Below, piece after piece: positions 13,242-54,337 of a stretch of DNA of 64,000 bases (the first letter of the stretch is position 1; each line of letters starts with the position of its first letter). The stretch comes from Pelagibius litoralis. GTDB taxonomy: Bacteria; Pseudomonadota; Alphaproteobacteria; Kiloniellales; Kiloniellaceae. The notes below the pieces were generated by a model. That model was not told the DNA's origin. It saw nothing but the letters and a program-made list of their open reading frames with translations, and searched no databases. The stretch lies in the NCBI RefSeq assembly GCF_011683915.1, contig NZ_JAAQPH010000017.1, positions 1-64,000 on the forward strand, given 5' to 3'. A program made the translations under genes and the position numbers.

Positions 13242-14048
13242 ATGGCACGCCTGCGCCGAAGAAGGGTATCGGCACTTTCGATCAACCGGATGATTCCAAA
13301 TGCGCTGACGCTGCTGGCGCTCTGCGCCGGTTTGACCGCTGTGCGTCTTGCCCTGCAGGAGCGCTGGGAGATAGCGGTCGGCGCTGTCGTCGTTGCCATG
13401 CTGCTGGATGGTCTGGACGGGCGCATCGCCCGCCTGATGGGCGCGACCAGCGATTTCGGGGCGCAGTTGGACTCGCTTTCCGACGTCATTTCCTTCGGCG
13501 TGACCCCCGCGTTGATGATCTATCTCTGGACCTTGTCCGATGCCGGCGGGCTCGGCTGGGCCACCTGCCTGGTTTTTGCCGCCTGCTGTGCGTTGCGCCT
13601 TGCCCGCTTCAACGCCGCTTTGGGGGATGAGAACCCGCCACCGCTGGCGGCTCGGTACTTCGTCGGCGTGCCGGCGCCCGCCGCCGCCGGGCTTGTGTTG
13701 CTGCCCATGACCATGAGTTTCGTTTTCGGCGATACTGTGCTGCGCAGCGATGCGCTCAATCTGTTGACGCTTTTGATCGTCGCCTTCCTGATGGTGAGCC
13801 AAGTGCCTACCTTTTCGGCCAAGCGCTTGAAGCTACGCAAGCCGCATTGGCGCTTCGCCATGCTGGGTTTGGTGGGCTTCGCCGCGATTTTAATCTCGGA
13901 GCCCTGGGTAACGGTCACGATTGTCGGGCTCGCCTACCTGGTGAGCATCCCCCTGGCCGTTGTGCAGTACCGGCGCGAGGTCAAGACCATCGGTTTGGAC
14001 TCTCCGGCGGAACCGCAGCCGGACCCGGACAACACCACCGAAGACTAG
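13242..14048 (+). CDS. pssA: CDP-diacylglycerol--serine O-phosphatidyltransferase
   Basis: Joins CDP-diacylglycerol and serine to give phosphatidylserine, the substrate of Psd encoded just upstream. The 268-residue membrane protein carries the complete CDP-alcohol phosphotransferase motif DG-x2-AR-x8-G-x3-D-x3-D (DGRIAR ... GAQLDSLSD) followed by about six membrane segments. The ATG at 13242, one base after the psd stop, is preferred over an in-frame start inside psd. The TAG stop is the first three bases of the second dispersed repeat. Confidence 0.96.
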   Translation: MARLRRRRVSALSINRMIPNALTLLALCAGLTAVRLALQERWEIAVGAVVVAMLLDGLDGRIARLMGATSDFGAQLDSLSDVISFGVTPALMIYLWTLSDAGGLGWATCLVFAACCALRLARFNAALGDENPPPLAARYFVGVPAPAAAGLVLLPMTMSFVFGDTVLRSDALNLLTLLIVAFLMVSQVPTFSAKRLKLRKPHWRFAMLGLVGFAAILISEPWVTVTIVGLAYLVSIPLAVVQYRREVKTIGLDSPAEPQPDPDNTTED

Positions 14049-14185
14049 ATCGGATCATGTTTTGACGGAACCACTTCGTGGTTGCGCCAAAACATGTGAA
14101 TCCGATCGCCATCAAACAGTTAGAGCAGATTCACCCGGTCGATGGATCGCCTCCGGCGATTCCATCCGACCGGGATCTGCTCTAG
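14046..14185 (+). repeat. Two-hairpin dispersed repeat, copy 2
   Basis: Second copy of the element at 6071-6211: 12 substitutions and one single-base gap by hand alignment, same orientation. In hairpin 1 a C-to-T change on the left arm is matched by G-to-A on the right arm, keeping the pair. In hairpin 2 the arms around GGTCG/CGACC pair better than in copy 1. It lies between the convergent pssA and RND genes and supplies the pssA stop codon. Confidence 0.9.
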
Positions 14186-28101: not shown

Positions 28102-30495
28102 ATGATCGAGACCCAAGACCTGAAGATGCTGGAGGCGCTGGAGAAGAAAGTCCTCTGGCTGTCCTCCTGGATGATCCACAACGCCAACCACCTGCGCCCA
28201 AAGAGTGACGGGGTGAAGGTCGGGGGGCACCAGGCCTCCAGCGCCTCCCTCGCCACCCTGATGACGGCACTCTATTTCCATGTGCTCAGGCCGCAGGATC
28301 GGGTGGCGGTGAAACCTCATGCCAGCCCGGTGTTCCACGCGATCCAGTACCTGCTCGGCAACCAGGACCGGGAGAGGCTGGAGAACTTCCGCGGCTTCGG
28401 TGGCGCCCAGTCCTATCCCTCGCGCACCAAGGACGTCGACGATGTCGATTTCTCCACCGGTTCCGTCGGCCTGGGTGTCGCCATCACCTCCTTCGCCAGC
28501 CTGGTGCAGGACTATGTGCGGCTGAAGGGCTGGTCGCAGAAGGCACCCGAAGGCCGCATGGTCGCCCTGGTCGGCGATGCGGAACTCGATGAGGGCAACA
28601 TCTATGAAGCCCTGATGGAGGGCTGGAAGCATGATCTGCGCAACACCTGGTGGGTCATCGACTACAACCGCCAGAGCCTGGACGCCGTGGCGCGCGAAGG
28701 CCTCTACGGTCAGTTCGATGCGCTGTTCCGCTCGATGGGCTGGGAGGTGGTCACCATCAAGTACGGCCACCTGCTGCAGGCTGCTTTCAAGGAACCGGGG
28801 GGTGAGGCGATCCGCGACTGGATCGACGGCTGTCCCAACCAGCTATACTCGGCCCTGACTTTCCAGGGCGGTGCCGCCTGGCGCAAGCGTCTGCTCGACG
28901 ATCTCGGCGATCAGGGGCCTGTCACGGCCTTGATCGAAGCGCGCAGCGACGATGATCTGGCGCGTCTGATGACCAACCTGGGCGGTCATGACCTGCCGGC
29001 GATCCTCGAAGCCTTCGCATCAATCGATCACGACCGTCCGGTCTGCTTTATCGCCTATACGGTAAAGGGCTACGGCCTGCCGCTGGCCGGTCACAAGGAC
29101 AACCATTCCGGTCTGATGACACCGGATCAGATGGAGGCCTACCGCAGCGGCCTGGGCGTTCGCGCGGGGCAGGAGTGGGAACCCTTCGAGGCGATGGAGC
29201 CATCGCAGGCCGAGATCGAGCGTTTTCTGAAAGCGGTCCCGTTCAACGCCCGGGGACGCCGCCGTTATCAGGCGGCGCGGGTGCCGCTGCCCGCGGCCCT
29301 GCCGACGCCAAGCGGCGAGGTGATGTCGACGCAGGAGGGTTTCGGCAAGATCCTGAACGAAGTGGCGCGGGAGGACTCGCCGCTGGCCCAGCGCATCGTC
29401 ACCACCGCGCCGGACGTGACGGTCTCGACCAACCTGGGTGCCTGGGTGAACCGGCGCGGCCTCTTCAGCCGCACCCCGCTGGGCGATACCTTCCGGGATG
29501 AGAAGGTGCCCTCGGCGCAGAAGTGGATCATGGGACCTGACGGCCAGCACCTGGAACTGGGCATCGCGGAAATGAACCTCTTCCTGCTGCTGTCTGCGCT
29601 GGGGTTATCGCACTCGTTGTTCGGCGAGCGCCTGCTGCCCATCGGCACGCTCTACGACCCCTTCATTCAGCGCGGTCTCGATGCCCTGAACTATGCCTGC
29701 TATCAGGATGCGCGCTTCATGCTGGTGGCCACGCCCTCAGGCATCACCCTGGCGCCGGAGGGTGGGGCGCATCAGTCGGTCTCCAGCCCGCTGATCGGTC
29801 TGGCACAGGACGGCCTGGCGTCCTTCGAGCCCGCCTTCGTTGACGAACTCGCGACCATCATGGCCTGGTCCTTCGATTACATGCAGCGCGACGGGGAGGG
29901 GGCACCTTCGGGCCCCTGGCTGCGCGACGAGAAGGGCGGCTCGGTCTATCTGAGACTCTCGACCCGGCCCCTGGAACAGCCCAAGCGGGCGATGAGCGAA
30001 ACCCTGGCCGAAGACATCATCAAGGGCGCCTACTGGCTGCGCGCGCCCGGGCCGAACTGCGAGGTGGTCATCGCCTATCAGGGCGTCGTCGCTGCTGAGG
30101 CGATTGCCGCCGCCGGCTTGATCGCCGAGGACCGCCGCGATGTCGGCGTGTTGGCGGTGACCTCCGCCGACCGCCTCTCTGCCGGCTGGCACGCGGCGGA
30201 ACGGGCGCGGCAGGAAGGCCAGCATCAGGCAAGATCTCACATTGAGGGTCTGTTGGCGCCCATCGACCGGGATGCCGGTCTGGTGACGCTGCTCGACGGA
30301 CATCCCACCACGCTCTCCTGGCTCGGCGGCGTGCGCGGCCACCGGGTGCAGGCCCTGGGGGTCGAGCACTTCGGCCAGACCGGCACGGTGCAGGATCTCT
30401 ACGGCCACCACCGCATCGACACCGATGCCGTTGTTGCCGCCGCCAATGCAGCCTCTGCCGGCCGCCCGATCCGCTATCTCAGGGCCTTGCCTTAG
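28102..30495 (+). CDS. AceE-like 2-oxoacid dehydrogenase E1 / transketolase-family enzyme
   Basis: A thiamine-diphosphate enzyme of 797 residues, often annotated only as transketolase. It follows the homodimeric pyruvate dehydrogenase E1 plan: N-terminal ThDP domain with GGHQASSASLATLM, FSTGSVGLGVA and the Mg/ThDP motif GDAELDEGN...NTWWVIDYNRQSLD, a pyrimidine-binding middle domain (HLELGIAEMNLF), and a C-terminal domain. Homology to P. putida MdeB and the divergent Lrp gene suggest oxidation of 2-oxobutyrate or another amino-acid-derived oxoacid. No E2/E3 genes are adjacent. The last 21 codons have a degenerate copy at 35596-35658. Confidence 0.85.
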   Translation: MIETQDLKMLEALEKKVLWLSSWMIHNANHLRPKSDGVKVGGHQASSASLATLMTALYFHVLRPQDRVAVKPHASPVFHAIQYLLGNQDRERLENFRGFGGAQSYPSRTKDVDDVDFSTGSVGLGVAITSFASLVQDYVRLKGWSQKAPEGRMVALVGDAELDEGNIYEALMEGWKHDLRNTWWVIDYNRQSLDAVAREGLYGQFDALFRSMGWEVVTIKYGHLLQAAFKEPGGEAIRDWIDGCPNQLYSALTFQGGAAWRKRLLDDLGDQGPVTALIEARSDDDLARLMTNLGGHDLPAILEAFASIDHDRPVCFIAYTVKGYGLPLAGHKDNHSGLMTPDQMEAYRSGLGVRAGQEWEPFEAMEPSQAEIERFLKAVPFNARGRRRYQAARVPLPAALPTPSGEVMSTQEGFGKILNEVAREDSPLAQRIVTTAPDVTVSTNLGAWVNRRGLFSRTPLGDTFRDEKVPSAQKWIMGPDGQHLELGIAEMNLFLLLSALGLSHSLFGERLLPIGTLYDPFIQRGLDALNYACYQDARFMLVATPSGITLAPEGGAHQSVSSPLIGLAQDGLASFEPAFVDELATIMAWSFDYMQRDGEGAPSGPWLRDEKGGSVYLRLSTRPLEQPKRAMSETLAEDIIKGAYWLRAPGPNCEVVIAYQGVVAAEAIAAAGLIAEDRRDVGVLAVTSADRLSAGWHAAERARQEGQHQARSHIEGLLAPIDRDAGLVTLLDGHPTTLSWLGGVRGHRVQALGVEHFGQTGTVQDLYGHHRIDTDAVVAAANAASAGRPIRYLRALP

Positions 30496-30535: not shown

Positions 30536-31594
30536 TCATTCTTCTTCAAGGGTGACAACAACGACTCTGAACGGCCCCGTTTTAGCCAAGGAGGGGTCAT
30601 CCAGCATGAAATGGCGCAGCCTGCCTTCAGTCACGGCGACCTTGTTGCCGAAGACCGTGAGGTTAAGCGGCATGTCGAGACCATCGACAAGGGGTTCGAC
30701 AAGAAGAGGCGCGGGGCCTTCCAGGTCGACAACCAGCAACTTACCGTCGCCGCTTTGAACTGCGCCTTCAAGAATCAGCAGCCGCCCGTCGTCGGTCATT
30801 GCAAGGCCGTCGGGGTTCTGGATCTTACGCGTCAGGTTGAGCGGCACGACCTCCGCTCCAACCTCATTTAGCCTCACCCGAAACAGGGCGCCGTCGCTGT
30901 AGAGGCCGACGATCAAGTCGCCACTGGGCGTCATGACAATCCCGGCCGGGCCCAGGTCGCCCGGTGCGAAAAACGCATCGTCAGCTATCGTTTCAAAGGA
31001 AGCGCCGGGGGCTGCCAGATGAAGGATGCGGTCGCCGATGCTGTCGGTTACGTAGATCCCACCTTTGTTGTCGAGGGCAATGTCGTTCGCGAAACCTTGA
31101 TCCGGGATGGTCGAAGACCAAACGACCTCGCCTTGAGAAAGGTCTATGGCTGCGATCCGATGGGGGCGTCGCACCCTCTCACCGTTGATCTCCTGCCCCA
31201 GGAAGTCGGGCGATGTGACCCATAGCAAACCAGTCTGGGTGTCGAAGCGAAGTGATGTTCCAGCAAAGACCTCATCTGTTTCCTGAAAAGCCCGCTCCGT
31301 TGTTCCGTCGGTTGAAACACGCAGGATGTGACCCGCGGTCACAGAGCCGACGAAGAGGTCACCTTCAGGGCCGACGGCTATCCCGTTAGGATAGTCAAAG
31401 CCCTTCGGCAGCGGAATGGATTGTGCCGCAACTTCGGCTTGGGCGTGATGTGGCCCCATCAGCGGCCCCAGAACGATGAGTGCCGAAAGGAACGCCAAAA
31501 GGCGGTTGCGGCACGCGGTCGCTGATCTGAAAACAACGCGGCATTCGGTAACCAACCGGATTGGCGTTGCTGGACTGAAATCCGAAACTGTCAT
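30536..31594 (-). CDS. SMP-30/gluconolactonase-like beta-propeller, exported
   Basis: Predicted periplasmic six-bladed propeller of 352 residues. After a basic N-terminus a signal peptide (LLAFLSALIVLGPLMG, cleavage near HAQA) precedes repeats such as GFDYPNGIAVGPEGDLFVGSVTAGHILRV and GFANDIALDNKGGIYVTDSIGDRILHL. Relatives hydrolyse lactones or bind ligands; this one has no proven substrate. I prefer the ATG at 31594, preceded by AAGAGGAC. An ATG at 31702 overlaps the SDR stop by four bases and would add 36 unlikely residues, but shows the two genes are probably co-transcribed. Confidence 0.75.
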   Translation of the reverse strand: MTVSDFSPATPIRLVTECRVVFRSATACRNRLLAFLSALIVLGPLMGPHHAQAEVAAQSIPLPKGFDYPNGIAVGPEGDLFVGSVTAGHILRVSTDGTTERAFQETDEVFAGTSLRFDTQTGLLWVTSPDFLGQEINGERVRRPHRIAAIDLSQGEVVWSSTIPDQGFANDIALDNKGGIYVTDSIGDRILHLAAPGASFETIADDAFFAPGDLGPAGIVMTPSGDLIVGLYSDGALFRVRLNEVGAEVVPLNLTRKIQNPDGLAMTDDGRLLILEGAVQSGDGKLLVVDLEGPAPLLVEPLVDGLDMPLNLTVFGNKVAVTEGRLRHFMLDDPSLAKTGPFRVVVVTLEEE

Positions 31595-31698
31595 GGAGGA
31601 GTCCTCTTGTTGGATAGTTGATGCCGCCGTGGCCGGGTTTGCCTGTATGCCTATGGCGGTTTGGCAATGAAGGGTTCCTTCGCGCCGTTGCTGCGTCA

Positions 31699-32469
31699 TC
31701 ACCGTTGGCCGGGGATGCTGTAGCCGCCGTCGATCAGGATCGCCTGACCGGTGATGTTCGCCGCGCGGCTGGAGAGCAGGAAGGCGGCTAGTTCTGCCGT
31801 TTCGCGCGGCGTGCCCAGGCGGCCTATGGGATGGGCTTTGCCGAAGGCAGCGAAGACCGTCTCGTCGTCCTGGAAAGCCTGTCGCGTCATATCCGTGTCG
31901 ATGCCGCCGGGATTGATGTTGTTGATACGGATATCGAACGGCGCAAGCTCGAGAGCGGCGGCACGCAGCAGGCCATCCATTCCAGCCTTGCTCGCGGAAT
32001 AGCTCGTCGAGCCCGGCAGGGCGCCGACTGCGAGCCAGGACGACGTGTTGACGATCGCGCCGCCGCCGTTTTTCTTCATCTGGGTGGCCTGCGCGCGTAC
32101 CGACATCCAGATCGCTTTTAGATTTGTATCGATTGTATGGGTCCAGTCCTCTTCCGACTGTTCGAGCATCGGCACGAAGTTCCCGATGGTTCCCGCGTTG
32201 TTGAAAGCAAAGTCGAGCCGCCCGAAGATGGAAGTCGTCTCTTCAACGATCCGGGCATGATCCTCAGATCGTGTGATATCTGCGGCGATGGGCACTGCCG
32301 TGCCGCCGCTGCGCGCGATCTGCTCGGCGAGTTCGTTCAAACGCTCCTGTCGCCGGGCGACGATTGCAAGCTTTGCCCCTTCGTCGGCGAAGAGTTCGGC
32401 TGCGGCCCTGCCGATACCTGAACTGGCGCCGATGACGACGCCGGCTTTTCCTTCAAGAAGGCCCGACAT
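31699..32469 (-). CDS. Short-chain dehydrogenase/reductase
   Basis: NAD(P)-dependent oxidoreductase of 256 residues, classical SDR: cofactor loop GASSGIG (about 13-19), NNAG near 90, catalytic Ser in NTSSW and YSASKAG (Tyr/Lys), and a NINPGGIDTDM loop. Substrate unknown. Start at 32469 is backed by GGGAG eight bases upstream. Divergent from a LysR gene with only 76 bases between them, so that regulator likely controls it. Confidence 0.93.
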   Translation of the reverse strand: MSGLLEGKAGVVIGASSGIGRAAAELFADEGAKLAIVARRQERLNELAEQIARSGGTAVPIAADITRSEDHARIVEETTSIFGRLDFAFNNAGTIGNFVPMLEQSEEDWTHTIDTNLKAIWMSVRAQATQMKKNGGGAIVNTSSWLAVGALPGSTSYSASKAGMDGLLRAAALELAPFDIRINNINPGGIDTDMTRQAFQDDETVFAAFGKAHPIGRLGTPRETAELAAFLLSSRAANITGQAILIDGGYSIPGQR

Positions 32470-32545
32470 GCTTTTCTCTCCCGTGTTTCCTATTGGAGGG
32501 AAAAGTGGGAGCCACCATGTGCTGTGATAATGGAATGAAAATGCG

Positions 32546-33496
32546 ATGGATAATCCCATAGGCCGCAACAATGAACCGCATGAGCCTGCCGATGATAAAA
32601 TGGCGCTTCTGCAGGCTTTCGCCGAAACCGCGCGACGCCTCAGCTTTGTGAAGGCTGCCGCTGCGCTCAGTCTGACCCCGTCTTTGATGAGTCGCCGGGT
32701 GAAGAAACTCGAGAGCCTGCTTGGTGTTCAATTGCTTGCGCGTACGACGCGACGGGTCACTTTGACGGAGGCGGGAGAGGTTTACCTTGGCTACGCTGAG
32801 AGAATCCTCGCCGATCTGCAGGAGGCGGACGCTGCGGCAGCTTCTTTGGGAAGCCGGCCCGCGGGTCTCTTGACGGTCTCTGTACCCTGGGTTTTCGGTC
32901 GTTTGAAGGTGGCACCGGCTGTTCCTGAATTCATGTCTTGGAACCCCGCAATCCGGGTCGACCTTCGGTTTACGGACTACTATGTCGATCTGGTCGATCA
33001 ACGGATCGATGTTGCGATCCGGATCGGCGAACTCAAGGACTCCTCGCTGCGGGCCCGGCGAATTGCCGATAACCATCGTGGTCTTGTCGCGTCCGCGCGC
33101 TATCTTGACCGCTATGGTCGGCCGGACTCACCAGACGACTTAACGGCACATAGATGCCTGCACTTTCCGAACCTCGTGAGCGGTGACCGATGGTTGCTGG
33201 AGAGGGAAGGCGTGACGCGGCTCGTGCCGATCAATCCTTGGATGCGGGCAAACGATGCCGGTGCTCTTCTCAATGCAGCCTGCGTTGGCGCTGGCATTTC
33301 GCTGCTGTCCGATTTCATCACGGCTGAAGCGCGCCAATCGGGTGCGTTGGAGACTGTGCTGCCCGAGTGGACTGTTCCGGTCACGGGGATCTACGCAGTC
33401 TATCCGGAAGCAAACTTCGTCCCTGCAAAGACACGGGCTTTCGTGGCGTTTCTCGTTGAACGGTTTTCCGGCGGCGGCCCATCCGCTATCCGGTGA
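32546..33496 (+). CDS. LysR family transcriptional regulator
   Basis: A 316-residue regulator. The N-terminal helix-turn-helix (ALLQAFAETARRLSFVKAAAALSLTPSLMSRRVKKLESLLG) is followed by a substrate-binding domain (from about residue 105), of the CrgA-like group judging by RPAGLLTVSVPWVFGRL. Divergent from the SDR gene, its probable target together with the propeller gene. The start could also be the ATG at 32600, which would remove 18 residues rich in Asn/Glu/Pro. Confidence 0.9.
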   Translation: MDNPIGRNNEPHEPADDKMALLQAFAETARRLSFVKAAAALSLTPSLMSRRVKKLESLLGVQLLARTTRRVTLTEAGEVYLGYAERILADLQEADAAAASLGSRPAGLLTVSVPWVFGRLKVAPAVPEFMSWNPAIRVDLRFTDYYVDLVDQRIDVAIRIGELKDSSLRARRIADNHRGLVASARYLDRYGRPDSPDDLTAHRCLHFPNLVSGDRWLLEREGVTRLVPINPWMRANDAGALLNAACVGAGISLLSDFITAEARQSGALETVLPEWTVPVTGIYAVYPEANFVPAKTRAFVAFLVERFSGGGPSAIR

Positions 33497-33513
33497 CGGT
33501 GCCTTGAGGGCCG

Positions 33514-34536
33514 TCAGGTGACCCACTCGAAAAGCCAGCCGGCTGCGAGCGAACCGACAACCGCAAGCACCAGATACAGCATGAAAGGTTTTGCTCGGAG
33601 CACCGGAATGATCGCCAAGGCCCCCCAGATGCTCACCACGCCGCCGGATACCAGGAAAGCCATGGCGGCACCCTGCGACATGCCGTGGTCGATCAAGCCG
33701 CGGGTAAGCGGGAGTGCCGCGTAGCCGTCCAGGTAGGCAGGCGCGCCGACGAAAACGGCCAGGGGAATCGCCCATCGGGACTGGTTTCCGACATAGGCAG
33801 CCAGCGCCTGCGGGGCCAGCAGTTCCTGCATCAGGTATTCCGCCGAAAAGGCGAAACCAAGACAAAGCAGAAGCAGCTTTGTCATCGCCCAGATCTCTTT
33901 GACGAACTGATTGCGTCGCTCTTGCTCCTTCCAGATGGCGAGCCGGAAAGGGGCGGTGGTACCGCATCCGCCCCCGAGGGAGGCGGCAATGCCGTTCTGC
34001 CGCAGCGGCGCGCGGGTCCAGGCAAACCGCGACAGTGCGGCGGTAACGGCGCCGCCGAGAAGCCCGATGCCGAAAGCCGCCAGCGTTTTGCCGACGGCAA
34101 AGCCGAAGCCGAGGGTTGCCGCTGTGACGGCGAACATGGCCGGATCGGTGACGGGCGACGAAAGCCAGAACGCCATGATCGGCGCCAGCGGCACGCCGGA
34201 CGCCAGCAGGCCCGCCATTAGGGGCAGGACCGCGACCCCGCAGACCGGTGTGATCGCGCCGACCGCCGCGGCGGCCAGAATCGCGGTGGCGCGATTCCCC
34301 TCAAAGACCCGCGCGATATGCCCGCCGGCGCCGCTGGCATTCACCCAGGCCGATGCGAGGACACCGGGAATGACGAGCGGGGCGATATCCACCATGCCGC
34401 TGACCACGAATGACAGGGTTGCTGCGGCCTGTTCCGGTTCCCACAGGTAGAGACCCACAACGAACGCCAGGGTGAGCGCTCCCCAGATTCTCGGCTTTGT
34501 CGCGGCCGGTTTGGGCGCCCGTGCAATCTCACTCAT
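33514..34536 (-). CDS. Predicted permease, ArsP/DUF318 family
   Basis: Integral membrane protein of 340 residues with about eight to ten helices and the family's duplicated motifs (VIPGVLASAWVN; AITPVCGVAVLPLMAGLLASGVPLAPIMAFWLSSPVTDP; VGAPAYLDGYAALPLTRGLIDHGMSQGAAMAFLVSGG). ArsP members export trivalent organoarsenicals, but many relatives have other unproven roles, and the cysteine pattern here (ITPVCG, GGGCG) is compatible without being diagnostic. Divergent from a LysR gene (85-base gap), its likely regulator. It converges on the upstream LysR gene. Confidence 0.82.
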   Translation of the reverse strand: MSEIARAPKPAATKPRIWGALTLAFVVGLYLWEPEQAAATLSFVVSGMVDIAPLVIPGVLASAWVNASGAGGHIARVFEGNRATAILAAAAVGAITPVCGVAVLPLMAGLLASGVPLAPIMAFWLSSPVTDPAMFAVTAATLGFGFAVGKTLAAFGIGLLGGAVTAALSRFAWTRAPLRQNGIAASLGGGCGTTAPFRLAIWKEQERRNQFVKEIWAMTKLLLLCLGFAFSAEYLMQELLAPQALAAYVGNQSRWAIPLAVFVGAPAYLDGYAALPLTRGLIDHGMSQGAAMAFLVSGGVVSIWGALAIIPVLRAKPFMLYLVLAVVGSLAAGWLFEWVT

Positions 34537-34621
34537 CTTTGTTTTCCAAGAAGAAACCCGTTTGCGCCGAACGCTAGCCTGCGCCTATGCTCCTGAAAAA
34601 TGAATAATATGGCTATGAGCT

Positions 34622-35521
34622 ATGAGTATAAACGATAGGTTGGCGGTCCCCGAAAAACTGGACAGCGAGCTGTTGCGCACGTTTCTGGCCGTCGCTGATG
34701 CCGGCAGTGTCTCCGGGGGTGCCGAACGGATACTGCGGTCGCAATCGGCGGCCAGTCTGCAGATCAAGCGGCTGGAGAGCCTTTTGGGCGTCCCGGTCTT
34801 CGAGCGGCATGCGCGCGGTGTTTCGCTCACCGCAACCGGCGAGAAGCTGCGGCCGCTGGCGCAGCGTGTCGTCGACCTGCTTGATGCGGCTATCGGTGAT
34901 CTGAGATCGGAAGGCCTGGAAGGATCTCTGCGTATCGGCGTTCCGGACGAGTACGGGGAGATCATTCTGCCGAAGATCATCGCGCGCTTTGCCCGTCATC
35001 ATCCCCGGGTGGAACTGGCTGTGCGTTGCGGCTTCAGCGCCGACTTTCCCGCGGCGCTTTCAAAGGACGAACTCGATCTGGCGGTCCATGCCGTGGAGGC
35101 GGCGCCCCCCGCTTCGCAGATCCTTTTGAAAGAAAAGACGTACTGGGTCGGGGCGCGGTCTCATTCGGTGCACGAGCAGGACCCCCTTCCCATCGCCCTT
35201 TTTGATCGAGCGTGCTGGTGGCGCGACAGGGCCTTGCAGGCGCTGGAAGCCGCCGGCCGGCGCTACCGTGTAATCTACACCAGCGAAAGCGTGACAGGGG
35301 TTGCGGCCGCAATCGAAGCGGGCGTCGCTGTCGGCTTGCTGGGCGAGAGTTCCCTGCGCGATGGCTTGCGGCCACTGCTGCCGGCGGACGGCTTTCCCCG
35401 CATGCCGGATTCCCTGCTGGTTCTGGAGACCGGGCCCGGCGCGCGATCCTCCGTGGGCAAAGCGATGGCCGCGACAATCGTTGAAGCCTTTGGGCGGCAG
35501 GTTCCACGACGCCATTCCTAA
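34622..35521 (+). CDS. LysR family transcriptional regulator
   Basis: A 299-residue regulator with N-terminal helix-turn-helix (LLRTFLAVADAGSVSGGAERILRSQSAASLQIKRLESLLG) and a type 2 periplasmic-binding-like effector domain (from about 95). Divergent from the ArsP-like permease and probably its regulator. A direct CTATGAG repeat spans the start codon region (about 34613-34627), a possible autoregulatory feature. Typical length and composition for the family. Confidence 0.92.
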   Translation: MSINDRLAVPEKLDSELLRTFLAVADAGSVSGGAERILRSQSAASLQIKRLESLLGVPVFERHARGVSLTATGEKLRPLAQRVVDLLDAAIGDLRSEGLEGSLRIGVPDEYGEIILPKIIARFARHHPRVELAVRCGFSADFPAALSKDELDLAVHAVEAAPPASQILLKEKTYWVGARSHSVHEQDPLPIALFDRACWWRDRALQALEAAGRRYRVIYTSESVTGVAAAIEAGVAVGLLGESSLRDGLRPLLPADGFPRMPDSLLVLETGPGARSSVGKAMAATIVEAFGRQVPRRHS

Positions 35522-35540
35522 CCACTTGGACTTAAGGTTG

Positions 35541-35602
35541 GCGGAACAGGCCTCTTTGGGCAGGCCACCGGCCGTCTCGATGGGATGCAAAACCCGCTGC
35601 AG
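35541..35602 (-). pseudogene. Fragment of a Rieske oxygenase gene 5' end
   Basis: Read on the minus strand, 55 of 62 bases match the intact Rieske gene at 36393-36454 by hand alignment. The fragment encodes LQRVLHPIETAGGLPKEA versus LQRVLQPIETAGGLPNEA. Nothing before or after it resembles the rest of the gene, so it is a relic of a second copy or a related gene, in opposite orientation to the intact gene. Confidence 0.85.
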
Positions 35603-35658
35603 CGGCCAACGCGGCCTCCGCCGGCCGCCCGATCCGCTATCTGCGCGCGGTGCCGTGA
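35596..35658 (+). pseudogene. Fragment of an AceE-like E1 gene 3' end
   Basis: The last 21 codons of a relative of the E1 gene at 28102-30495, with stop: ANAASAGRPIRYLRAVP versus ANAASAGRPIRYLRALP. It abuts and overlaps the inverted Rieske fragment at a CTGCAG hexamer, so two unrelated gene ends have been joined. Confidence 0.85.
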
Positions 35659-35844
35659 GGGCCAAGAAGTGCTAACGCTGAAACAGCCAAAGCCGTGCCG
35701 CACAGCCCCTGTGCCATTCTTGTGAGATGGGTTCGTCTTGTTTCATTTTTGGTGATTTCAATGAACCTGCTCAATGCGGGAGTCGACCCATGGGTCATCT
35801 CACCAGTTTGGTGGATCGAAATTCATACCCACGGAGTTTAGGAA

Positions 35845-36159
35845 ATGACCAAAATTCTGACTGCTGTTATGACGACGGCATTTCTGCTGTCATCGGGTGC
35901 CAACCTGTCGCTTGCGGATCCGGCCGTAAACGAAGACGGTTCCCAAACATGCAATGCAAGCGGTGCGAGCACCGGCGTTGCGAACGGTGTCTGCGCCAAC
36001 GATTTGGCGACGAACGAGGGCTACTGTGATGGCGGCTGGAGCACTGAACCGGGCGGCGGTACGACCTGCTCCGAACCAAACGCCAGCAATAGCCAAGAGC
36101 TTGGGGCTCAGAAACTCAAGGCTGCGGCCCCAATGCCCACGCGACAGCCTTCGCGGTGA
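35845..36159 (+). CDS. Small secreted cysteine-containing protein
   Basis: A 104-residue protein with a clear signal peptide (MTKILTAVMTTAFLLSSGANLSLA, cleavage before DPAVN). The mature part is Asn/Gly/Thr-rich with four Cys (QTCNA, GVCAN, GYCDG, TTCSE), which could form two disulfides. The C-terminus is low-complexity. I recognise no family. GGAG and AGGAA precede the ATG closely. It lies alone between the gene fragments and the Rieske gene, followed by a hairpin at 36201. Likely accessory. Confidence 0.6.
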   Translation: MTKILTAVMTTAFLLSSGANLSLADPAVNEDGSQTCNASGASTGVANGVCANDLATNEGYCDGGWSTEPGGGTTCSEPNASNSQELGAQKLKAAAPMPTRQPSR

Positions 36160-36347: not shown

Positions 36348-37520
36348 ATGAGCAGCTGGTTACCGCGGGAGATCGAAGCGCAGCGCGACGCGTTGCAGCG
36401 GGTTCTGCAACCCATCGAGACGGCCGGTGGCCTGCCCAACGAGGCCTACACCGCCGATGCCTTTGCCGCGCTGGAGCGCGACCTGGTTCTGGCCCGCGGC
36501 TGGACCTGTATCGGTGTCGGCGCCTGGGTGCCGCAGCCGGGCGACCTTCGGCCCGTAAAGCTGCTCGGCCTGCCGCTGCTGCTGCTGCGGGACCGCGAAG
36601 GCGCGGTGAAGGTTTTTCACAATGTCTGCAGCCACCGTGGGATGGAGCTCGTCTCGCAACCCTGCCGTTCCAAGGGCCTGATCCGCTGCCCCTATCATTC
36701 CTGGAGCTACGGTCTCGACGGCGCCCTCAAGGCGACGCCCTTCATCGGCGGGCCCGGCACCCGCGACTGCCCGGGCTTCGACCGGGCCGATCACGGCCTG
36801 AAGGCGGTGCGCAGTGCTGTCTGGTGCGATGCGGTCTTCGTCGATCTCTCCGGTGAAGCGGAGGACTTCGCGAGTTTCATTGCGCCGCTGGCCGAGCGCT
36901 GGGGGGCCTTCGATGCTGCACGGCTGCGCCACGGCGGCCCGGACTCCGCCTTCACCATCGAGCTGAACTGCAACTGGAAACTCGCGGTCGAGAACTACTG
37001 CGAAGCCTATCATCTGCCGTGGATCCACCCGAGCCTGAATCAGTATTCCCGCCTGGAGGATCACTACAACGTCGCCGTCGAGGGCCACATGGCCGGGCAG
37101 GGCAGTACTGCCTACCGCGCCACCCTCAGCGACGATGGCCGCGCCTTTCCCGAGCATCCGGATCTGCCCGGACAGTGGCAGGGCGGAGCGGAGTACATCG
37201 CGCTCTTCCCCAACGTGCTGTTCGGCGTTCATGCCGATCATTTCTATAGCGTGGTTCTGGAGCCGCTGGCGCCGGGTCGTACCCGCGAGCACTTCGAGAT
37301 CTATTACTTCGACGATCAGGCCCTCGGCGATTCACTGGCCGACCTGCGCGCCGCCAACACGCACCAATGGCGCGGTATCTTCGAGGAAGACCGGGGCGTG
37401 GTCGAGGGCATGCAGGCCGGGCGTGCTTCGCCGGCTTTTCAGGGCGGCGTGTTCTCACCTGTGATGGACGGGCCGACCCATTGCTTTCACCTCTGGATGG
37501 CCGCCCGCCTGCTCGGCTGA
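36348..37520 (+). CDS. Rieske non-heme iron oxygenase, alpha subunit
   Basis: A ring-hydroxylating or N-demethylating oxygenase of 390 residues. The Rieske 2Fe-2S site is complete: Cys94, His96, Cys114, His117 (CSH ... CPYH). The mononuclear iron site has His222 and His227 in ENYCEAYHLPWIHP. The short GbcA/CntA-like form and the dimethylglycine-dehydrogenase-like genes 9 kb away make a quaternary-amine substrate such as glycine betaine possible; this is inference. No reductase gene is adjacent. GAGGAGG before the ATG at 36348 sets the start. Part of its 5' end is duplicated at 35541. Confidence 0.88.
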   Translation: MSSWLPREIEAQRDALQRVLQPIETAGGLPNEAYTADAFAALERDLVLARGWTCIGVGAWVPQPGDLRPVKLLGLPLLLLRDREGAVKVFHNVCSHRGMELVSQPCRSKGLIRCPYHSWSYGLDGALKATPFIGGPGTRDCPGFDRADHGLKAVRSAVWCDAVFVDLSGEAEDFASFIAPLAERWGAFDAARLRHGGPDSAFTIELNCNWKLAVENYCEAYHLPWIHPSLNQYSRLEDHYNVAVEGHMAGQGSTAYRATLSDDGRAFPEHPDLPGQWQGGAEYIALFPNVLFGVHADHFYSVVLEPLAPGRTREHFEIYYFDDQALGDSLADLRAANTHQWRGIFEEDRGVVEGMQAGRASPAFQGGVFSPVMDGPTHCFHLWMAARLLG

Positions 37521-38299: not shown

Positions 38300-38440
38300 C
38301 GGCGTTACTCAAGCGGGCTGCGCCGGCCCAGCAGCTATTCCGCAAAAAAAGCGAAGTATTCCTGTCATCATAACGTCATGTGCTGGCTGTAGAGCTTGAG
38401 TCGTTACGACCGGTGTCGTTCGGCTCAGGGGGCCATCAGC

Positions 38441-39313
38441 ATGTCCATCATCGCGCTGTCGCGTATCAGCAAGTCTTTCGGCGATAAGACCGTCCTGCAT
38501 GGCGTCGACCTCGAGGTCGGCGAGGGGGAAATGGTCGGCCTGATCGGTGCTTCGGGCTCCGGCAAATCGACATTGATCCGCATGATCTGCGGTTTGGAGC
38601 GCATGGATCGCGGCACCGCCGGCCGCATTGCGCTGTTCGACAAGGAGACCCAGAAGGACGGCCGCTTCAGCGAGCATTGCGAGGGCCTGCGCCGCGAAGT
38701 CGGCGTCATCTTCCAGCAGTTCAACCTTATCTCGCGTTTGTCGTTGCTCACCAACGTTCTGGCCGGGCGACTCGGCCGCATTCCGCGTTGGCGCGGCACG
38801 ACGGGGCTGTTTCCGCAGAGCGACAAGGTAAAGGCGCTGCGGGCGCTGGAGCGGGTCGGCCTGATCGATCAGGCGCATCAGCGCGCCTCCACGCTGTCCG
38901 GCGGACAGCAGCAGCGCGGCGCCATCGCCCGGGTTCTGACCCAGGAGGCGCGGCTCATCCTCGCCGACGAGCCGATCGCCTCTCTCGATCCGGCCTCCGC
39001 CAAGCTCGTCATGTCGACGCTGCGTCAGATCAACCGTCTGGACAAGACGACGGTGATCGTCTCGTTGCATCAGATCGACCATGCCTTCGAGCACTGCGAC
39101 CGCATCATTGCCCTGAAAGACGGCCGGGTGCTTCACAACGGCCCGACCGGCGGTATCTCCCCGGACGACATTGCCGATCTCTACGGCGTCGAAGCGGGCA
39201 GCCTCGACCTCGTAAAGGCCCGCCCGGCGAAGCCCACCGGCCGCCCGGCTTATCCAGGCAACGGCCTGGCCCCGCAGGATGACCTGGCCGCACGAGTCGC
39301 GGTCAGCGTCTGA
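38441..39313 (+). CDS. phnC: Phosphonate ABC transporter ATP-binding protein
   Basis: ATPase of the phosphonate/phosphite importer, 290 residues. Walker A GASGSGKST, Q-loop FQQFNLISRLSLLTNVLAGRLG (a PhnC hallmark), signature LSGGQQQR, Walker B LILADEPIASLDP, and H-loop SLHQIDHA. First gene of phnCDE; phnD starts 43 bases later. The C-terminal 35 residues are a Pro/Ala-rich extension. The ATG at 38441 is preferred over one 15 codons earlier. Confidence 0.94.
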   Translation: MSIIALSRISKSFGDKTVLHGVDLEVGEGEMVGLIGASGSGKSTLIRMICGLERMDRGTAGRIALFDKETQKDGRFSEHCEGLRREVGVIFQQFNLISRLSLLTNVLAGRLGRIPRWRGTTGLFPQSDKVKALRALERVGLIDQAHQRASTLSGGQQQRGAIARVLTQEARLILADEPIASLDPASAKLVMSTLRQINRLDKTTVIVSLHQIDHAFEHCDRIIALKDGRVLHNGPTGGISPDDIADLYGVEAGSLDLVKARPAKPTGRPAYPGNGLAPQDDLAARVAVSV

Positions 39314-39356
39314 AATCCCAGTTCGCATTCTTTCGAAAAAAAAACAGGAGCAAATC

Positions 39357-40361
39357 ATGTTCAAGACGTTCACCGCAGCCGCGACAGGCGTTGCGACCGC
39401 CCTGGCTTTGGGCGCCAGCGTCGCCCAGGCCGAGATGCCCAAGGAAATCAATTTCGGCATCATTTCGACCGAATCCACTTCCGCACTGGAATCGTCCTTC
39501 GGACCCTTCCTTGATGACATGGGCAAGTCGCTCGGCGTCAAGGTGAATACCTTTTTCGCGTCCGACTATGCCGGCGTGATCGAGGGTATGCGTTTCGGCA
39601 AGGTCGATGTCGCCTGGTTCGGCAACAAGTCGGCCATCCAGGCGGTAGACCGGGCCGGCGGCGAGGTCTTCGCCCAGACCATCAAGGATGACGGCTCCAA
39701 GGGTTATTACTCCCTGCTGATCGCCCATAAGGACTCCAAGATCAACTCCCTTGAGGACGTGCTGGCCTGCGACAAGACCGCGACCTTCGGCAACGGCGAT
39801 CCGAACTCGACCTCGGGCTTTGCCATCCCCGGCTACTATGTCTGGGCGCTGAACAACAAGGAGCCGGAAGACTGCTTCGCGCGGGTCACCAACTCCAATC
39901 ACGAAGGCAACGCCATGGCGGTCGCCAACGGCAAGGTCGACGTGGCCACCAACAACACCGAGTCCATCTACGCGCGCCTCGCCAAGACCAACCCGGAAGC
40001 CGCCGCCAACATCAAGGAGATCTGGCGTTCGCCGATGATCCCCTCCGATCCGATGGTCTGGCGCAGGGAGCTGGCGGACGAGGCGAAGCAGAAGATCTAC
40101 TACTTCTTCATGCAGTACGGCCGCTTCGGCGACATGGACAAGGTCAAGCGCGAGCGTGACATCCTGGCCAACGTCTCCGACGGCTGGGGCCCCTTCCTGG
40201 CTTCTTCCAACGCGCAGTTGCTGGACGTGCGCCAGATCGAGGCCTTCAAGGCCAAGGTGAAGGCAGAGAATGCCGGCGACATGGAGGCCGTGAAGGCCGC
40301 CGATGCGGAGCTCGCGAAGCTGCAGGCCTATGCCGGCGTTGTCGGCGCGGCCGGCTACTAA
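39357..40361 (+). CDS. phnD: Phosphonate ABC transporter substrate-binding protein
   Basis: Periplasmic binding protein of 334 residues. Signal peptide MFKTFTAAATGVATALALGASVAQA, then the PhnD fold with INFGIISTESTSALESSFGPFLDDM, GKVDVAWFGNKSAI and GDPNSTSGFAIPGYYVW. The family binds 2-aminoethylphosphonate, phosphite or related compounds; the ligand here is unknown. CAGGAG six bases before the ATG is a strong ribosome binding site. A hairpin just after the stop probably reduces read-through into phnE. Confidence 0.95.
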   Translation: MFKTFTAAATGVATALALGASVAQAEMPKEINFGIISTESTSALESSFGPFLDDMGKSLGVKVNTFFASDYAGVIEGMRFGKVDVAWFGNKSAIQAVDRAGGEVFAQTIKDDGSKGYYSLLIAHKDSKINSLEDVLACDKTATFGNGDPNSTSGFAIPGYYVWALNNKEPEDCFARVTNSNHEGNAMAVANGKVDVATNNTESIYARLAKTNPEAAANIKEIWRSPMIPSDPMVWRRELADEAKQKIYYFFMQYGRFGDMDKVKRERDILANVSDGWGPFLASSNAQLLDVRQIEAFKAKVKAENAGDMEAVKAADAELAKLQAYAGVVGAAGY

Positions 40362-40378
40362 ATCTTAGCCACGGGGCG

Positions 40379-40417
40379 GCAGGGACGGGCGGTAGCGCCC
40401 GCTCCTGCGGTTCTTTT
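40379..40417 (+). terminator. Attenuator-like hairpin between phnD and phnE
   Basis: GCAGGGACGGGCG pairs with CGCCCGCTCCTGC (two central mismatches) around a GTAG loop, followed by GGTTCTTTT. It resembles a leaky terminator, as often seen after binding-protein genes that must be expressed above their permease. Confidence 0.7.
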
Positions 40418-40445
40418 CCGCCGCTTTCAATCGGGCCTGCGAACG

Positions 40446-41291
40446 ATGACCATCACCACAGCCAACGCCAATCCAACCGATACCGCGCCCGGCCGTCTGT
40501 CGCCCGAGGTGCGCGATGCCCTGGCGCCGCGTTGGTCCGGCTTCGTCAACAAGGCCGCCGTGGCGATGATCCTCGCTGTCCTCCTGGCTGTCTCCTACTA
40601 CCCGGCAGAGGTCGACCGCTGGACCTATCTCATCACCGATGCCGGCAATATGGCAGTCTTCATCGCCGATTTTCTGAAGCCCGACTTTACCGACCTCGGG
40701 TTCTTCGTGATCAAGATGATCGAGACCGTGCAGATCGCGCTCTGGGGCACCGTCCTCTCGATCATCGTCGGCGTGCCCTGCGCCCTGCTGTCGTCCAACA
40801 ACATCGCGCCGCCCTGGATCGTGCAGCCGATGCGCCGCCTGATGGATGCGGCCCGCGCCATCAACGAGCTGGTCTTCGCCATCCTCTTCGTCGCTGCCGT
40901 GGGCCTCGGCCCCTTTGCCGGCGTGATGGCCTTGTTCATTCATAACCTGGGTGTGATCTCAAAGCTGTTCTCGGAGGCTGTCGAGGCCATCGATCCGCGC
41001 CCGGTGGAGGGCATCCGCGCGACCGGCGCCAGCCGCCTGCAGCAGGTGATCTACGGCGTCATCCCCCAGGTGCTGCCGCTGTGGAGCAGCTACTCGCTCT
41101 ACCGCTTCGAAACCCTGGTGCGCTCGGCCACCGTGCTGGGCATCGTCGGTGCCGGCGGGATCGGCTTCACCTTCTACGAATCCTTCCGATCGTTCCAGTA
41201 CGACCGCGCCTCGGCAGTGATCATCGTCGTGGTGGTTGTTGTCTCGGTCATCGACATCCTCTCCGCCCAGCTCCGCAAGCGCCTGATCTAG
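40446..41291 (+). CDS. phnE: Phosphonate ABC transporter permease
   Basis: Membrane subunit of 281 residues with about six helices. It contains the PhnE loop LFSEAVEAIDPRPVEGIRATGASRLQQVIYGVIPQVLP that docks on PhnC, and TVLGIVGAGGIGFTFYESFRSFQYD near the C-terminus. One permease gene only, whereas some phn loci carry two. No C-P lyase, phosphonatase or phosphite dehydrogenase gene follows. Confidence 0.94.
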   Translation: MTITTANANPTDTAPGRLSPEVRDALAPRWSGFVNKAAVAMILAVLLAVSYYPAEVDRWTYLITDAGNMAVFIADFLKPDFTDLGFFVIKMIETVQIALWGTVLSIIVGVPCALLSSNNIAPPWIVQPMRRLMDAARAINELVFAILFVAAVGLGPFAGVMALFIHNLGVISKLFSEAVEAIDPRPVEGIRATGASRLQQVIYGVIPQVLPLWSSYSLYRFETLVRSATVLGIVGAGGIGFTFYESFRSFQYDRASAVIIVVVVVVSVIDILSAQLRKRLI

Positions 41292-48581: not shown

Positions 48582-51053
48582 ATGAGTGATTTTCCAACAC
48601 AGGCCCGCGCGGTCATCATCGGCGGCGGGGTGATCGGTTGTTCCCTGGCCTATCATCTGGCCAAGCTCGGCTGGCGCGACGTGGTGCTGCTGGAGCGCAA
48701 GCAACTGACCTGCGGCACCACTTGGCACGCGGCGGGCCTCATCGGCCAGCTGCGCGCCACCTCCAACATGACCAAGCTCGCCAAGTACTCGGCGGAGCTT
48801 TACGGCACCTTGGAGGCGGAGACCGAGGTCGCCACCGGCTTCAAGCAGAACGGTTCGCTCTCGGTCGCGATCACCGACGAACGGCTGGAAGAACTGAAAC
48901 GCGGCGCCTCCATGGCCAAGACTTTCGGCCTTGATGTCGAGGTGCTGACGCCTTCGGAGGTGTCGGAGGCCTATCCGCAGCTGGCGTTGGACGGCGTCAC
49001 CGGCGGCGTCTTCCTGCCCAAGGACGGCCAGGCCGACCCGGCGAACATCGCCCATGCCCTGGCCAAGGGCGCGCGCCAGAAGGGCGTGAAGATCTTCGAA
49101 CAGACCAAGGTGACGGCGATCCGTCGGGAAGGTGGCCGGGTGACCGGCGTCGAGACCGACAAGGGCGCCATCACGGCGGACTACGTGGTGAACTGCGCCG
49201 GCATGTGGGGGCGTGAGGTCGGCCAGATGGCCGGTGTGAAGGTGCCCCTACATGCCTGCGAGCATTTCTACATCGTCACCGAGAATATCCCCGATCTGCC
49301 GCGCGACCTGCCGGTGCTGCGCATTCCCGACGAATGCGCCTACTACAAGGAAGACGCGGGCAAGATCCTGCTCGGCGCCTTTGAGCCGGTGGCCAAGCCC
49401 TGGGGCATGGACGGCATCGCCGAGGATTTTTGCTTCGACCAGTTGCCGGAGGACTTCGACCACTTCGCGCCGATCCTTGAGGCCGCCGTGGCGCGCCTGC
49501 CGATCCTGGAGACCGCCGGCATCCACACCTTCTTCAATGGGCCGGAGAGCTTCACCCCCGACGACCGCTACCTGCTGGGCGAAGCGCCGGAGCTGAAAAA
49601 TTTCTACGTCGCCGCCGGCTTCAACTCGGTGGGCATCCAGTCCGCCGGCGGGGCCGGCAAGGCGCTGGCCGAGTGGATGGACGGGGGCGAACCGCCCTTC
49701 GATCTCTGGGACGTCGATATCCGGCGCATGCAGCCCTTCCAGAACAATCGGACCTATCTCTATCAGCGCGCGACCGAGAGCCTGGGTCTGCTCTACGCCG
49801 ATCACTTTCCCTATCGCCAGTTCGCCACCGCGCGGGGCGTGCGCCAGTCGCCGCTGCACGAGCGCCTGGCCGAGCGCGGCGCCTGCTTCGGCGAGGTCGC
49901 GGGCTGGGAGCGCGCCAACTGGTTCCTGCCGCGCGAGGCCCGCGACGCGGGGGAGACGGCGGACTACCGCTACACCTGGAAGCGCCAGAACTGGTTCGGC
50001 TATGCGGCGGAGGAACACAAGGCGGTGCGCGAAGGCGTCGGCCTCTTCGACATGTCCTCCTTCGCCAAGATCCGCGTCGAGGGCCGGGATGCCGAGGCCG
50101 TGCTGCAGCGTGTCTGCGCCAACGACATCGCGGTGCCTGTCGGCAAGATCGTCTACACCCAGTGGCTGAACGGACGCGGCGGGATCGAGGCCGACCTGAC
50201 CGTCACCCGCCTGTCGGAAACCGAGTTCCTGGTCATCACCGGCGCGGCGGTCGGGGTGCGTGACTTCACCTGGCTGAAGCGCCACATTCCCGACGACGCC
50301 CATTGCATCGCCACCGACGTGACGGCGGGCGAGGCGGTGCTCTGCGTCATGGGGCCGAAGTCCCGCGACCTGCTGCAGCCGCTGACCTCGACGGATCTTT
50401 CAGGCGCCGCTTTTCCCTTTGCCACCACGCAGCAGATCGAAATCGGTTCGGCGCTCGCCCGCGCCCACCGCATCACCTATGTCGGCGAACTGGGCTGGGA
50501 GCTTTATGTCTCCGCCGATATGGCCCGCCATGTCTTCGACCGCATCGCCGAGGCCGGCGATACCCACGGCCTGCGCCTCTGCGGCATGCACGTGCTGGAT
50601 TCCTGCCGTATGGAAAAGGCCTTCCGCCACTTCGGCCACGACATCACCGACGAGGACCATGTGCTGGAGGCCGGCCTGGGCTTCGCCGTGAAGCCGGACA
50701 AGGCGGCCAGCCGCTTCGGCGACTTCCTGGGCCGCGAGGCGGTGCTGCGCAAGAAGCAGCTTGGCCTCTCCAAGCGTCTCTTGCAGTTCAAGCTGCAGGA
50801 CGCCGAGCCGCTGCTCTATCACAACGAGCCGATCTGGCGCGACGGCAGCATCGCCGGCTATCTCACCTCCGGCAACTACGGCCACCACCTCGGCGCCGCC
50901 ATCGGCCTGGGCTACGTCGCCTGCGACGTCTCGGAGAAAGCCGACGACGTGCTCGGCTCCACCTACGAGATCGAAGTGGCCGGCGAGCGCTTCCCGGCAA
51001 TGGCGAGCCTCAAGCCGCTGTATGATCCGAAGGCGGAGCGGATGCGGGGGTGA
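48582..51053 (+). CDS. Dimethylglycine/sarcosine dehydrogenase-like flavoprotein (paralogue 2)
   Basis: Same architecture as the upstream gene, 823 residues: FAD domain (AVIIGGGVIGCS; GTTWHAAGL with the flavin-linking His), then GcvT domain (FDMSSFAKIRVEGRDAEAVLQR, YVGELGWELYVSADMA) and GcvT C-terminal barrel (SGNYGHHLGAAIGLGYV). The two paralogues differ clearly in active-site neighbourhood (HAAGNCPTF versus HAAGLIGQLR), so they probably act on different methylamines. Part of an operon with paralogue 1. Its 3' end exists in two further degenerate copies at 52108 and 54001. Confidence 0.88.
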   Translation: MSDFPTQARAVIIGGGVIGCSLAYHLAKLGWRDVVLLERKQLTCGTTWHAAGLIGQLRATSNMTKLAKYSAELYGTLEAETEVATGFKQNGSLSVAITDERLEELKRGASMAKTFGLDVEVLTPSEVSEAYPQLALDGVTGGVFLPKDGQADPANIAHALAKGARQKGVKIFEQTKVTAIRREGGRVTGVETDKGAITADYVVNCAGMWGREVGQMAGVKVPLHACEHFYIVTENIPDLPRDLPVLRIPDECAYYKEDAGKILLGAFEPVAKPWGMDGIAEDFCFDQLPEDFDHFAPILEAAVARLPILETAGIHTFFNGPESFTPDDRYLLGEAPELKNFYVAAGFNSVGIQSAGGAGKALAEWMDGGEPPFDLWDVDIRRMQPFQNNRTYLYQRATESLGLLYADHFPYRQFATARGVRQSPLHERLAERGACFGEVAGWERANWFLPREARDAGETADYRYTWKRQNWFGYAAEEHKAVREGVGLFDMSSFAKIRVEGRDAEAVLQRVCANDIAVPVGKIVYTQWLNGRGGIEADLTVTRLSETEFLVITGAAVGVRDFTWLKRHIPDDAHCIATDVTAGEAVLCVMGPKSRDLLQPLTSTDLSGAAFPFATTQQIEIGSALARAHRITYVGELGWELYVSADMARHVFDRIAEAGDTHGLRLCGMHVLDSCRMEKAFRHFGHDITDEDHVLEAGLGFAVKPDKAASRFGDFLGREAVLRKKQLGLSKRLLQFKLQDAEPLLYHNEPIWRDGSIAGYLTSGNYGHHLGAAIGLGYVACDVSEKADDVLGSTYEIEVAGERFPAMASLKPLYDPKAERMRG

Positions 51054-52002: not shown

Positions 52003-52107
52003 AGTTTAACCGGAGCATGACCGCTTGGGGTCACTAGCAGACATCATCCGACGATAAGTCGTAGGTCCGCTTCTCAGCCAGTAGCGGGAGAGCGCTTAAT
52101 CGCCCTC

Positions 52108-52158
52108 GCCAGCTTTAAGTCGAACTATGACCCCAAGGCGGAGCGGGTGCGGGGGTGG
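52108..52158 (+). pseudogene. Fragment of a dimethylglycine-dehydrogenase-like gene 3' end (relic 1)
   Basis: The 17 codons read ASFKSNYDPKAERVRGW against ASLKPLYDPKAERMRG-stop at the end of paralogue 2; about 40 of 52 bases match by hand. The stop has become TGG. Nothing upstream resembles the rest of the gene. Confidence 0.75.
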
Positions 52159-53861: not shown

Positions 53862-54000
53862 GGTTCGTCCCCCCAACGATATGGTCGGGATCGCGGCGCT
53901 TTTTTACTTGATTGATATTCCCCAGATCGCCCCGTTCCCCACCTATGAGCTTGCGCCTTTGTTCTTCCCCGGTCAATCCTGGCGCGGAGAGGGGCGCCGC

Positions 54001-54337
54001 GCCGCGGTGCTGCGCAAGAAACAGCTCGGCCTCAGCAAGCGCCTGCTGCAGTTCAAGCTAGAGGGCGCTGAACCGCTGCTCAATCACAACGAGCCGATCT
54101 GGTGCGACGGCGCCATCGCCGGCTACTTCACCTCCGGCAACTACGGCCACCACCCGGGCGCCGCCATCGGCTTGGTTACATCGCCTGCGACGTGTCGGAG
54201 AAAGCCGACGACGTGCTCGGCTCGACCTACGAGATCGAAGGGGCGGGCGAGTGCTTCCCGGCCATGGCCAGCCTGAAGCCGCTCTACGATCCGAAGGCGG
54301 AGCGGATGCGGGGGCAGATGCCTAAAAGCCTAAACTG
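54001..54337 (+). pseudogene. Truncated, frameshifted 3' end of a dimethylglycine-dehydrogenase-like gene (relic 2)
   Basis: About 315 bases closely match 50735-51050 of paralogue 2 (AVLRKKQLGLSKRLLQFKL, then EPLLNHNEPIW, SGNYGHH, ACDVSEKADDVLGSTYEIE). A one-base deletion near 54172 (GGCTTGGTTAC against GGCCTGGGCTAC) breaks the frame. The stop is lost and the frame runs on to 54337. There is no 5' part. This is a decayed further copy from the same tandem family. Confidence 0.93.

Follow-up and report, generated by a model that had tools for sequence, protein, structure and literature searches.

Gene ends stranded behind acquired genes at an E1 locus of Pelagibius litoralis: a candidate footprint of repeated one-sided recombination

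Genes and gene ends between E1 and Rieske

The window, that is, the whole 64,000-base stretch of DNA analyzed here, comprises bases 1-64000 of contig C8 of the Pelagibius litoralis genome (G000). It carries an intact transketolase/pyruvate-dehydrogenase-E1-like gene (E1) and, farther downstream, an intact gene for a ring-hydroxylating oxygenase alpha subunit (Rieske), with two groups of genes, here called cassettes 1 and 2, lodged between them (Table 1). Behind cassette 2 lies a 118-base patch that resembles the right-hand border of a past insertion: an inverted piece of Rieske (the filler) runs directly into the last codons of an E1 gene (E1'').

Table 1. Features of the E1-Rieske block and of the second array, in window positions
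Feature	Position	Strand	Description
E1	28102-30495	+	Intact, 797-aa transketolase/pyruvate-dehydrogenase-E1-like; PF00456, PF17831; proposed recombination anchor
Cassette 1	30536-33496		SMP-30/NHL-like (30536-31702, -), SDR (31699-32571, -), LysR1 (32546-33496, +)
E1'	33467-33512	+	Truncated E1 3' end in the LysR1/ArsP interval; overlaps the end of the LysR1 reading frame
Cassette 2	33514-35521		ArsP-type permease (33514-34536, -), LysR2 (34622-35521, +)
Rieske filler	35540-35604	-	Inverted 65-bp copy of Rieske codons ~15-36; 89% identical to 36391-36455
Shared bases at joint	35599-35604		Six bases common to both pieces; possible microhomology
E1''	35599-35658	+	Final 20 codons, with the stop, of a different E1 allele
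Rieske	36348-37520	+	Intact ring-hydroxylating oxygenase alpha subunit; PF00355, PF00848; parent of the filler
FAD oxidoreductase/GcvT gene	48582-51053	+	Intact, 823 aa; PF01266, PF01571
ORF, 256 aa	51232-52002	+	Between FAD gene and first truncated 3' copy; no Pfam match
FAD-gene 3' copy, short	52080-52157	+	Truncated, 78 bp, 74% identical
Tryptophan halogenase	52188-53876	-	Between the two truncated 3' ends; PF04820
FAD-gene 3' copy, long	53996-54317	+	Truncated, 320 bp matched, 89% identical; one-base gap and in-frame stop

When bases 35400-35800 were searched against the genome (6,028,128 bases), three matches were obtained, the query itself included: one to Rieske (36391-36455, minus strand, 89% over 65 bp, E = 1.7e-17) and one to E1 (30435-30479, 89% over 45 bp, E = 2.2e-9). 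Comparison of the window with itself yields the identical two pairs, and the only other match of each piece in the genome is its parent gene, in accordance with an earlier note on this DNA, which had named the two flanking genes as the parents. The note's description of the scar is likewise borne out: the antisense Rieske match, which it gave as 55/62, is found with 7 differences in 65 bases, the motif CTGCAG lies at the meeting point of the pieces (35597-35602), and the E1-like 3' end runs to a stop at 35658, with 13 differences from the local E1 in the last 60 bases.

These 13 differences (47/60 bases identical) are distributed 2/1/10 over the three codon positions. E1'' is nearer to the E1 genes of two congeners, G003 and G001 (contig C29), with 6/60 differences each, than to the E1 of its own genome, and 0/60 of its bases are private, i.e., unseen among the congeners. 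Judged by the predominance of third-position differences, the nearness to G003 and G001 and the lack of private bases, E1'' is an E1 allele distinct from the present E1 and not its decayed copy; as a decayed self-copy of the local E1, the scar is disfavored by 10 of the 13 differences falling at third positions and by the absence of private bases. The filler, in contrast, is closest to the local Rieske (7/65 differences, compared with 14-21 for the seven congeners), and three of its seven changes, all within the last 16 bases on the LysR2 side, are found in no congener. The suggestion that both fragments came from paralogues or from another strain thus holds for the E1 piece, which is a different allele, but not for the Rieske piece, for which no paralogue was found. 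The six bases at the joint are identical to Rieske of G003, G001 and G005 and to E1 of G001 contig C29, whereas the local alleles show one mismatch (Rieske) and two mismatches (E1); the six-base agreement is thus with congener alleles only.

A third E1 3' end, E1', had been overlooked in the first reading and is the weaker copy. It matches the E1 piece of the scar in 40/48 columns, five bases beyond the stop included, a score reached by 0/17,432 random 74-bp pieces of the window; against the E1 end of G006, 0.1% of 17,417 random pieces score as high as E1' does. By nhmmer alone it gives E = 1.6, that is, chance level (unrelated gap stretches gave E = 0.2-0.6), and it is its position and its match to the scar that make the case for E1'. 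It is colinear with the E1-ArsP junction of G006: to the left of ArsP, the alignment carries on into that genome's E1 end. In a homologue of cassette 1 (G010:C23:22312-25189, 73% identical) similarity stops at window position 33453, and the last residues of LysR1 are therefore probably a remnant of E1. Given E1', less certain as it is than E1'', the block consists of at least two cassettes rather than one, each followed by a truncated E1 tail. Cassette 2 is 82% identical over 2,034 bp to G006:C172:24036-26068, which lies directly behind E1 in G006, and both cassettes recur as units elsewhere in the order, SMP-30-SDR-LysR1 in G010 and ArsP-LysR2 in G005 contig C9, G046 and G058.

Two further observations concern the surroundings of Rieske. 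An ORF at 35845-36159 (104 aa) has, by reading, a signal-peptide-like start and cysteines but no Pfam match, and a search of 58 genomes returned only itself and one doubtful match (E = 8.8e-4, 29%, internal stops). Downstream of Rieske, ORF reading indicates phosphonate-type ABC transporter-like genes at 38396-41291.

The same locus in congeners

The locus was compared in seven same-genus genomes (G001-G007), the genus being taken as Pelagibius. In three of them the site is unfilled, E1 being followed by Rieske within 0.75 kb (719 bp in G003, 753 bp in G007 and 261 bp in G004), and the contents of the site vary among the congeners, in agreement with the earlier view that the block was gained. 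In G006 the site is half filled: E1-ArsP-LysR2 is present without SMP-30, SDR and LysR1, and an AraC-type gene lies behind. The block therefore grew in steps, and the gain of the SMP-30, SDR, LysR and ArsP genes, correctly surmised earlier, took at least two of them. Other cargo occupies the site in G005 and G001, namely DUF533 and MFS genes, with an additional alcohol-dehydrogenase-like gene in G005. A stretch of ~4.6 kb behind E1 is common to G002 and G001 contig C29, and in G002 the Rieske gene is on a different contig from E1. Overall, it looks as if foreign genes were added at least twice behind E1.

Two readings of the block as a whole were rejected on these data. The rearrangement with inversion proposed in the earlier note is real for the ~65 bp of Rieske, but there is no indication of an inversion of the whole block, since E1-ArsP-LysR2 has the same orientation in G006 as in the window. 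The idea that the site was shaped solely by gene loss from a longer ancestral block is at odds with the three short E1-Rieske gaps and with the lack of cassette 1 in G006; moreover, when 35400-35860 was searched against the seven congeners, the matches were to the parent genes and, in G006, to LysR2, and the same block with intact E1 and Rieske copies at the position of the scar was not seen. An assembly or binning artefact might also be considered, several of the congeners being metagenome bins, but the E1-ArsP-LysR2 junction recurs in G006 and the scar lies inside a 141-kb contig, and we consider such an artefact hardly credible.

Profiles of the E1 3' end and the Rieske 5' end, run over ten E1/Rieske loci, gave strong matches beyond the true genes only at the P. 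litoralis scar (E = 1.4e-12 and 2.9e-12). Nothing better than E = 0.2 was found in the E1-Rieske gaps of G005, G001 (C129), G006, G003 and G007, the profile search revealed no clear E1 tail in the G005 and G001 cargo, and behind ArsP-LysR2 in G006 no E1 or Rieske tail was matched up to E = 5. In the simplest order of gains, the arrival of ArsP-LysR2 left E1'' behind and was followed by that of SMP-30-SDR-LysR1, which left E1'; since G006 has no E1'' behind LysR2, this order calls for later loss or replacement there.

Two side observations were made in the same comparison. In G002 (L056, 8964-9013, E = 0.003) and in G001 (C29, L057, 8715-8763, E = 0.006), the E1 profile has a weak match on the minus strand ~3.5 kb behind E1. 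G001 has two E1 loci (L057 and L054) on different contigs and with different downstream genes, one of them cut by a contig end, which may reflect a duplication or a mixed bin.

Truncated gene ends behind other genes

A second array of the same design as the E1 block is present at 48.6-54.3 kb of the window, where an intact FAD oxidoreductase/GcvT gene is followed by two truncated copies of its 3' end and intervening genes (Table 1), and similar footprints are found in four congeners. Behind the FAD gene of G006, which is read from two contigs, come tripartite-tricarboxylate-transporter genes, a LacI-type gene and a 3' copy of at least 438 bp that is 91% identical. Both G002 and G007 have, beyond other cargo, a truncated 3' copy of the Lrp-type gene that lies upstream of E1, and further truncated 3' copies belong to an SRAP gene in G007 and to a solute-binding-protein gene in G003. 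The stranded tails vary in length (~46 to 450 bp), which would not be expected of a fixed attachment core.

In G007 (P. marinus), the stranded 71-bp tail of the Lrp-type gene (L077, 1649-6809) lies beyond HlyD-like, cation-efflux and SAM carboxyl methyltransferase genes. G002 carries a 78%-identical halogenase downstream of the same FAD gene, and no truncated copy was seen there. A 142-bp direct repeat in the window (6070-6211 and 14045-14185, 91% identical), largely intergenic, looks like a dispersed repeat element.

Over eight tail/gene pairs, scored with E1' left out, 94 of 149 differences fall at third codon positions (with one third as the expectation, nominal p = 1e-13; this null is lenient, as a self-copy also gains third-position bias through changes in the intact gene). 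The bias is clearest for the FAD gene of G006 (29/39), for E1'' (10/13) and for the Lrp-type gene of G002 (9/12), and three of the eight pairs are not significant alone. These figures bear on the idea that the tails are self-copies, produced by internal tandem duplication of a gene end followed by insertion of cargo and decay. Such copies would need no donor, the same-genome identities of 74-91% are compatible with them, in G000 and in G006 the large FAD-gene copy most resembles the gene of the same genome, and the longer copy in G000 has a gap and an in-frame stop. However, tails that differ mostly at third positions suggest that E1'', at least, is another allele: of its 13 differences from the local E1 ten are third-position, no base is private, and with 6/60 differences it stands closer to G003 and G001 than to the local E1 (13/60). 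We therefore regard self-copying as quite improbable.

The frequency of such copies was surveyed in 1,039,500 bases of sampled G000 and G003 control stretches, together with 296 kb of E1 and FAD-gene neighborhoods from eight genomes, these neighborhoods being related, partly overlapping and chosen after the pattern had been noticed. Eleven rows were obtained, of which six are direct 3'-end copies downstream of their gene and one is a direct 5'-end copy upstream; three 5'-end rows flagged as paralogues and one inverted row were excluded from the count. The six downstream copies comprise three in the G000 window (from two genes), one in a G003 control stretch and two in G007. None of the other G000 stretches (660 kb) contained a direct 3' copy downstream of its gene; in G003, 379.5 kb yielded one. 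With 6 against 1 (p = 0.06), the asymmetry toward the 3' side is only suggestive. It should be noted that the survey filters missed the G006 and G002 cases as well as E1', which were found by other comparisons.

A one-sided mechanism and its relation to known systems

We consider it reasonably likely, with moderate confidence, that the E1 block arose by repeated recombination events that were homologous on one side only, with E1 as the anchor, and illegitimate at the right end, that is, by homology-facilitated illegitimate recombination (HFIR), a process for which de Vries and Wackernagel (2002) and Meier and Wackernagel (2003) are cited. A donor from a close relative, carrying an E1 end followed by ArsP-LysR2 and presumably linear, would have recombined homologously with the resident E1 on the left, and its right end would have been joined without homology into the last 20 codons of the resident gene. 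The outcome would be an intact, hybrid E1 followed by the cargo, on whose far side the former 3' end of the resident gene is stranded as E1''; the E1 piece is better read as the old end of the resident gene than as debris moved in. The 65-bp Rieske piece may have been copied, inverted, from ~0.8 kb away as filler during the joining. Short-patch double illegitimate recombination, in which short pieces are pasted in at microhomologies, would be a parallel to the filler. A second, later event of the same kind would have placed SMP-30-SDR-LysR1 between E1 and ArsP, stranding E1'. With one homologous and one illegitimate end, tails of any length and from any gene are predicted, in agreement with what is observed. 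Events on the 3' side may be favored by selection, because the gene and its promoter then stay whole; the 6-to-1 survey count fits this but is small.

Several features of the genomes bear on this proposal. G000 has no Ku match, which makes Ku-dependent end joining unlikely; one of the eight genomes (G004) has one. ComEC is present in 8/8 genomes but also in 10/14 controls and is therefore a weak argument. DUF2460 (PF09343), which we take to be a marker of RcGTA-like gene transfer agents, was found in 0/8 genomes and was detected in a Caulobacter control, as a single marker. Over the last 1,400 bp of the G000 E1, taken in seven 200-bp windows, G006 is nearest or ties for nearest in every one, and consequently no crossover into a foreign allele is seen; sliding identity revealed no foreign tract in the E1 end, and no donor carrying precisely the inserted DNA came to light.

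RecA acts poorly on repeats of ~46-60 bp with 80-90% identity, which counts against another route, namely Campbell-type integration, through one homologous crossover in E1, of circular DNA carrying an E1 3' piece and cargo, or movement of recombinase-free circularizable units bounded by direct repeats. This route predicts the same map of intact hybrid gene, cargo and truncated tail, the cargo is indeed flanked by direct repeats, and 'unconventional circularizable structures' with direct repeats have reportedly been published. It leaves the Rieske filler unexplained, however, and no circular form or donor was seen, and we judge it unlikely, though still to be reckoned with. Gene 3' ends are also common attachment sites, and direct repeats on the gene-distal side could be stacked att remnants of site-specific integration by lost or distant integrases. 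Against this stand five kinds of target gene, the spread in tail length (~46-450 bp) and repeats that are diverged rather than identical; moreover, none of the 21 cargo proteins scanned with Pfam belongs to an integrase or transposase family (4/21 had no match at all), and we regard site-specific integration as very unlikely.

If the HFIR reading is extended beyond E1, the 3' ends of metabolic genes in Pelagibius would be repeated, recombinase-free landing sites, the stack an ordered record of acquisitions from sister species, and the Lrp-E1-Rieske-FAD neighborhood a hot spot, a generalization that we put forward tentatively, as a possibility. Genes gained without a mobile element usually leave few signs of their arrival, and stranded tails would reveal the order, the anchor and the closeness of the donor for each gain. 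The signature, a truncated direct copy of a 3' end beyond cargo with third-position-biased differences, lends itself to easy searching, and the share of the gene pool that enters by such a route could thus be measured across whole genomes.

Among the matches listed in a search of the Pelagibius literature, no title deals with the E1-Rieske locus. The closest parallels lie elsewhere. In Vibrio cholerae, it has been proposed that the orphan immunity-gene arrays of type VI secretion clusters arise by a process resembling HFIR, and Rhs loci are named as a parallel (PMC5361080). Those arrays, as described there, resemble the present ones in their successive insertions, in a homology anchor on one side and in old 3' ends and genes pushed downstream, but they displace the variable part of the anchor gene itself, the effectors (PMC5361080); in Pelagibius, by contrast, the metabolic anchor stays whole and the cargo, with genes for transport, regulation and redox reactions, is unrelated. 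Dimorphic variable segments, attributed to 'illegitimate recombination assisted by homology' (PMC2884548), are similarly non-mobile and strain-variable at fixed sites, but they are short and vary within species, whereas here 2-3-kb cassettes differ between species and leave stranded gene tails. HFIR itself, with one homologous and one illegitimate end, has reportedly been described experimentally in transformation and conjugation (PMC3240628); the Pelagibius locus differs in being a natural footprint, repeated at one anchor. Gene gain of this kind, without a mobile element, is known but seldom documented, and its stacking behind metabolic genes is a fresh example.
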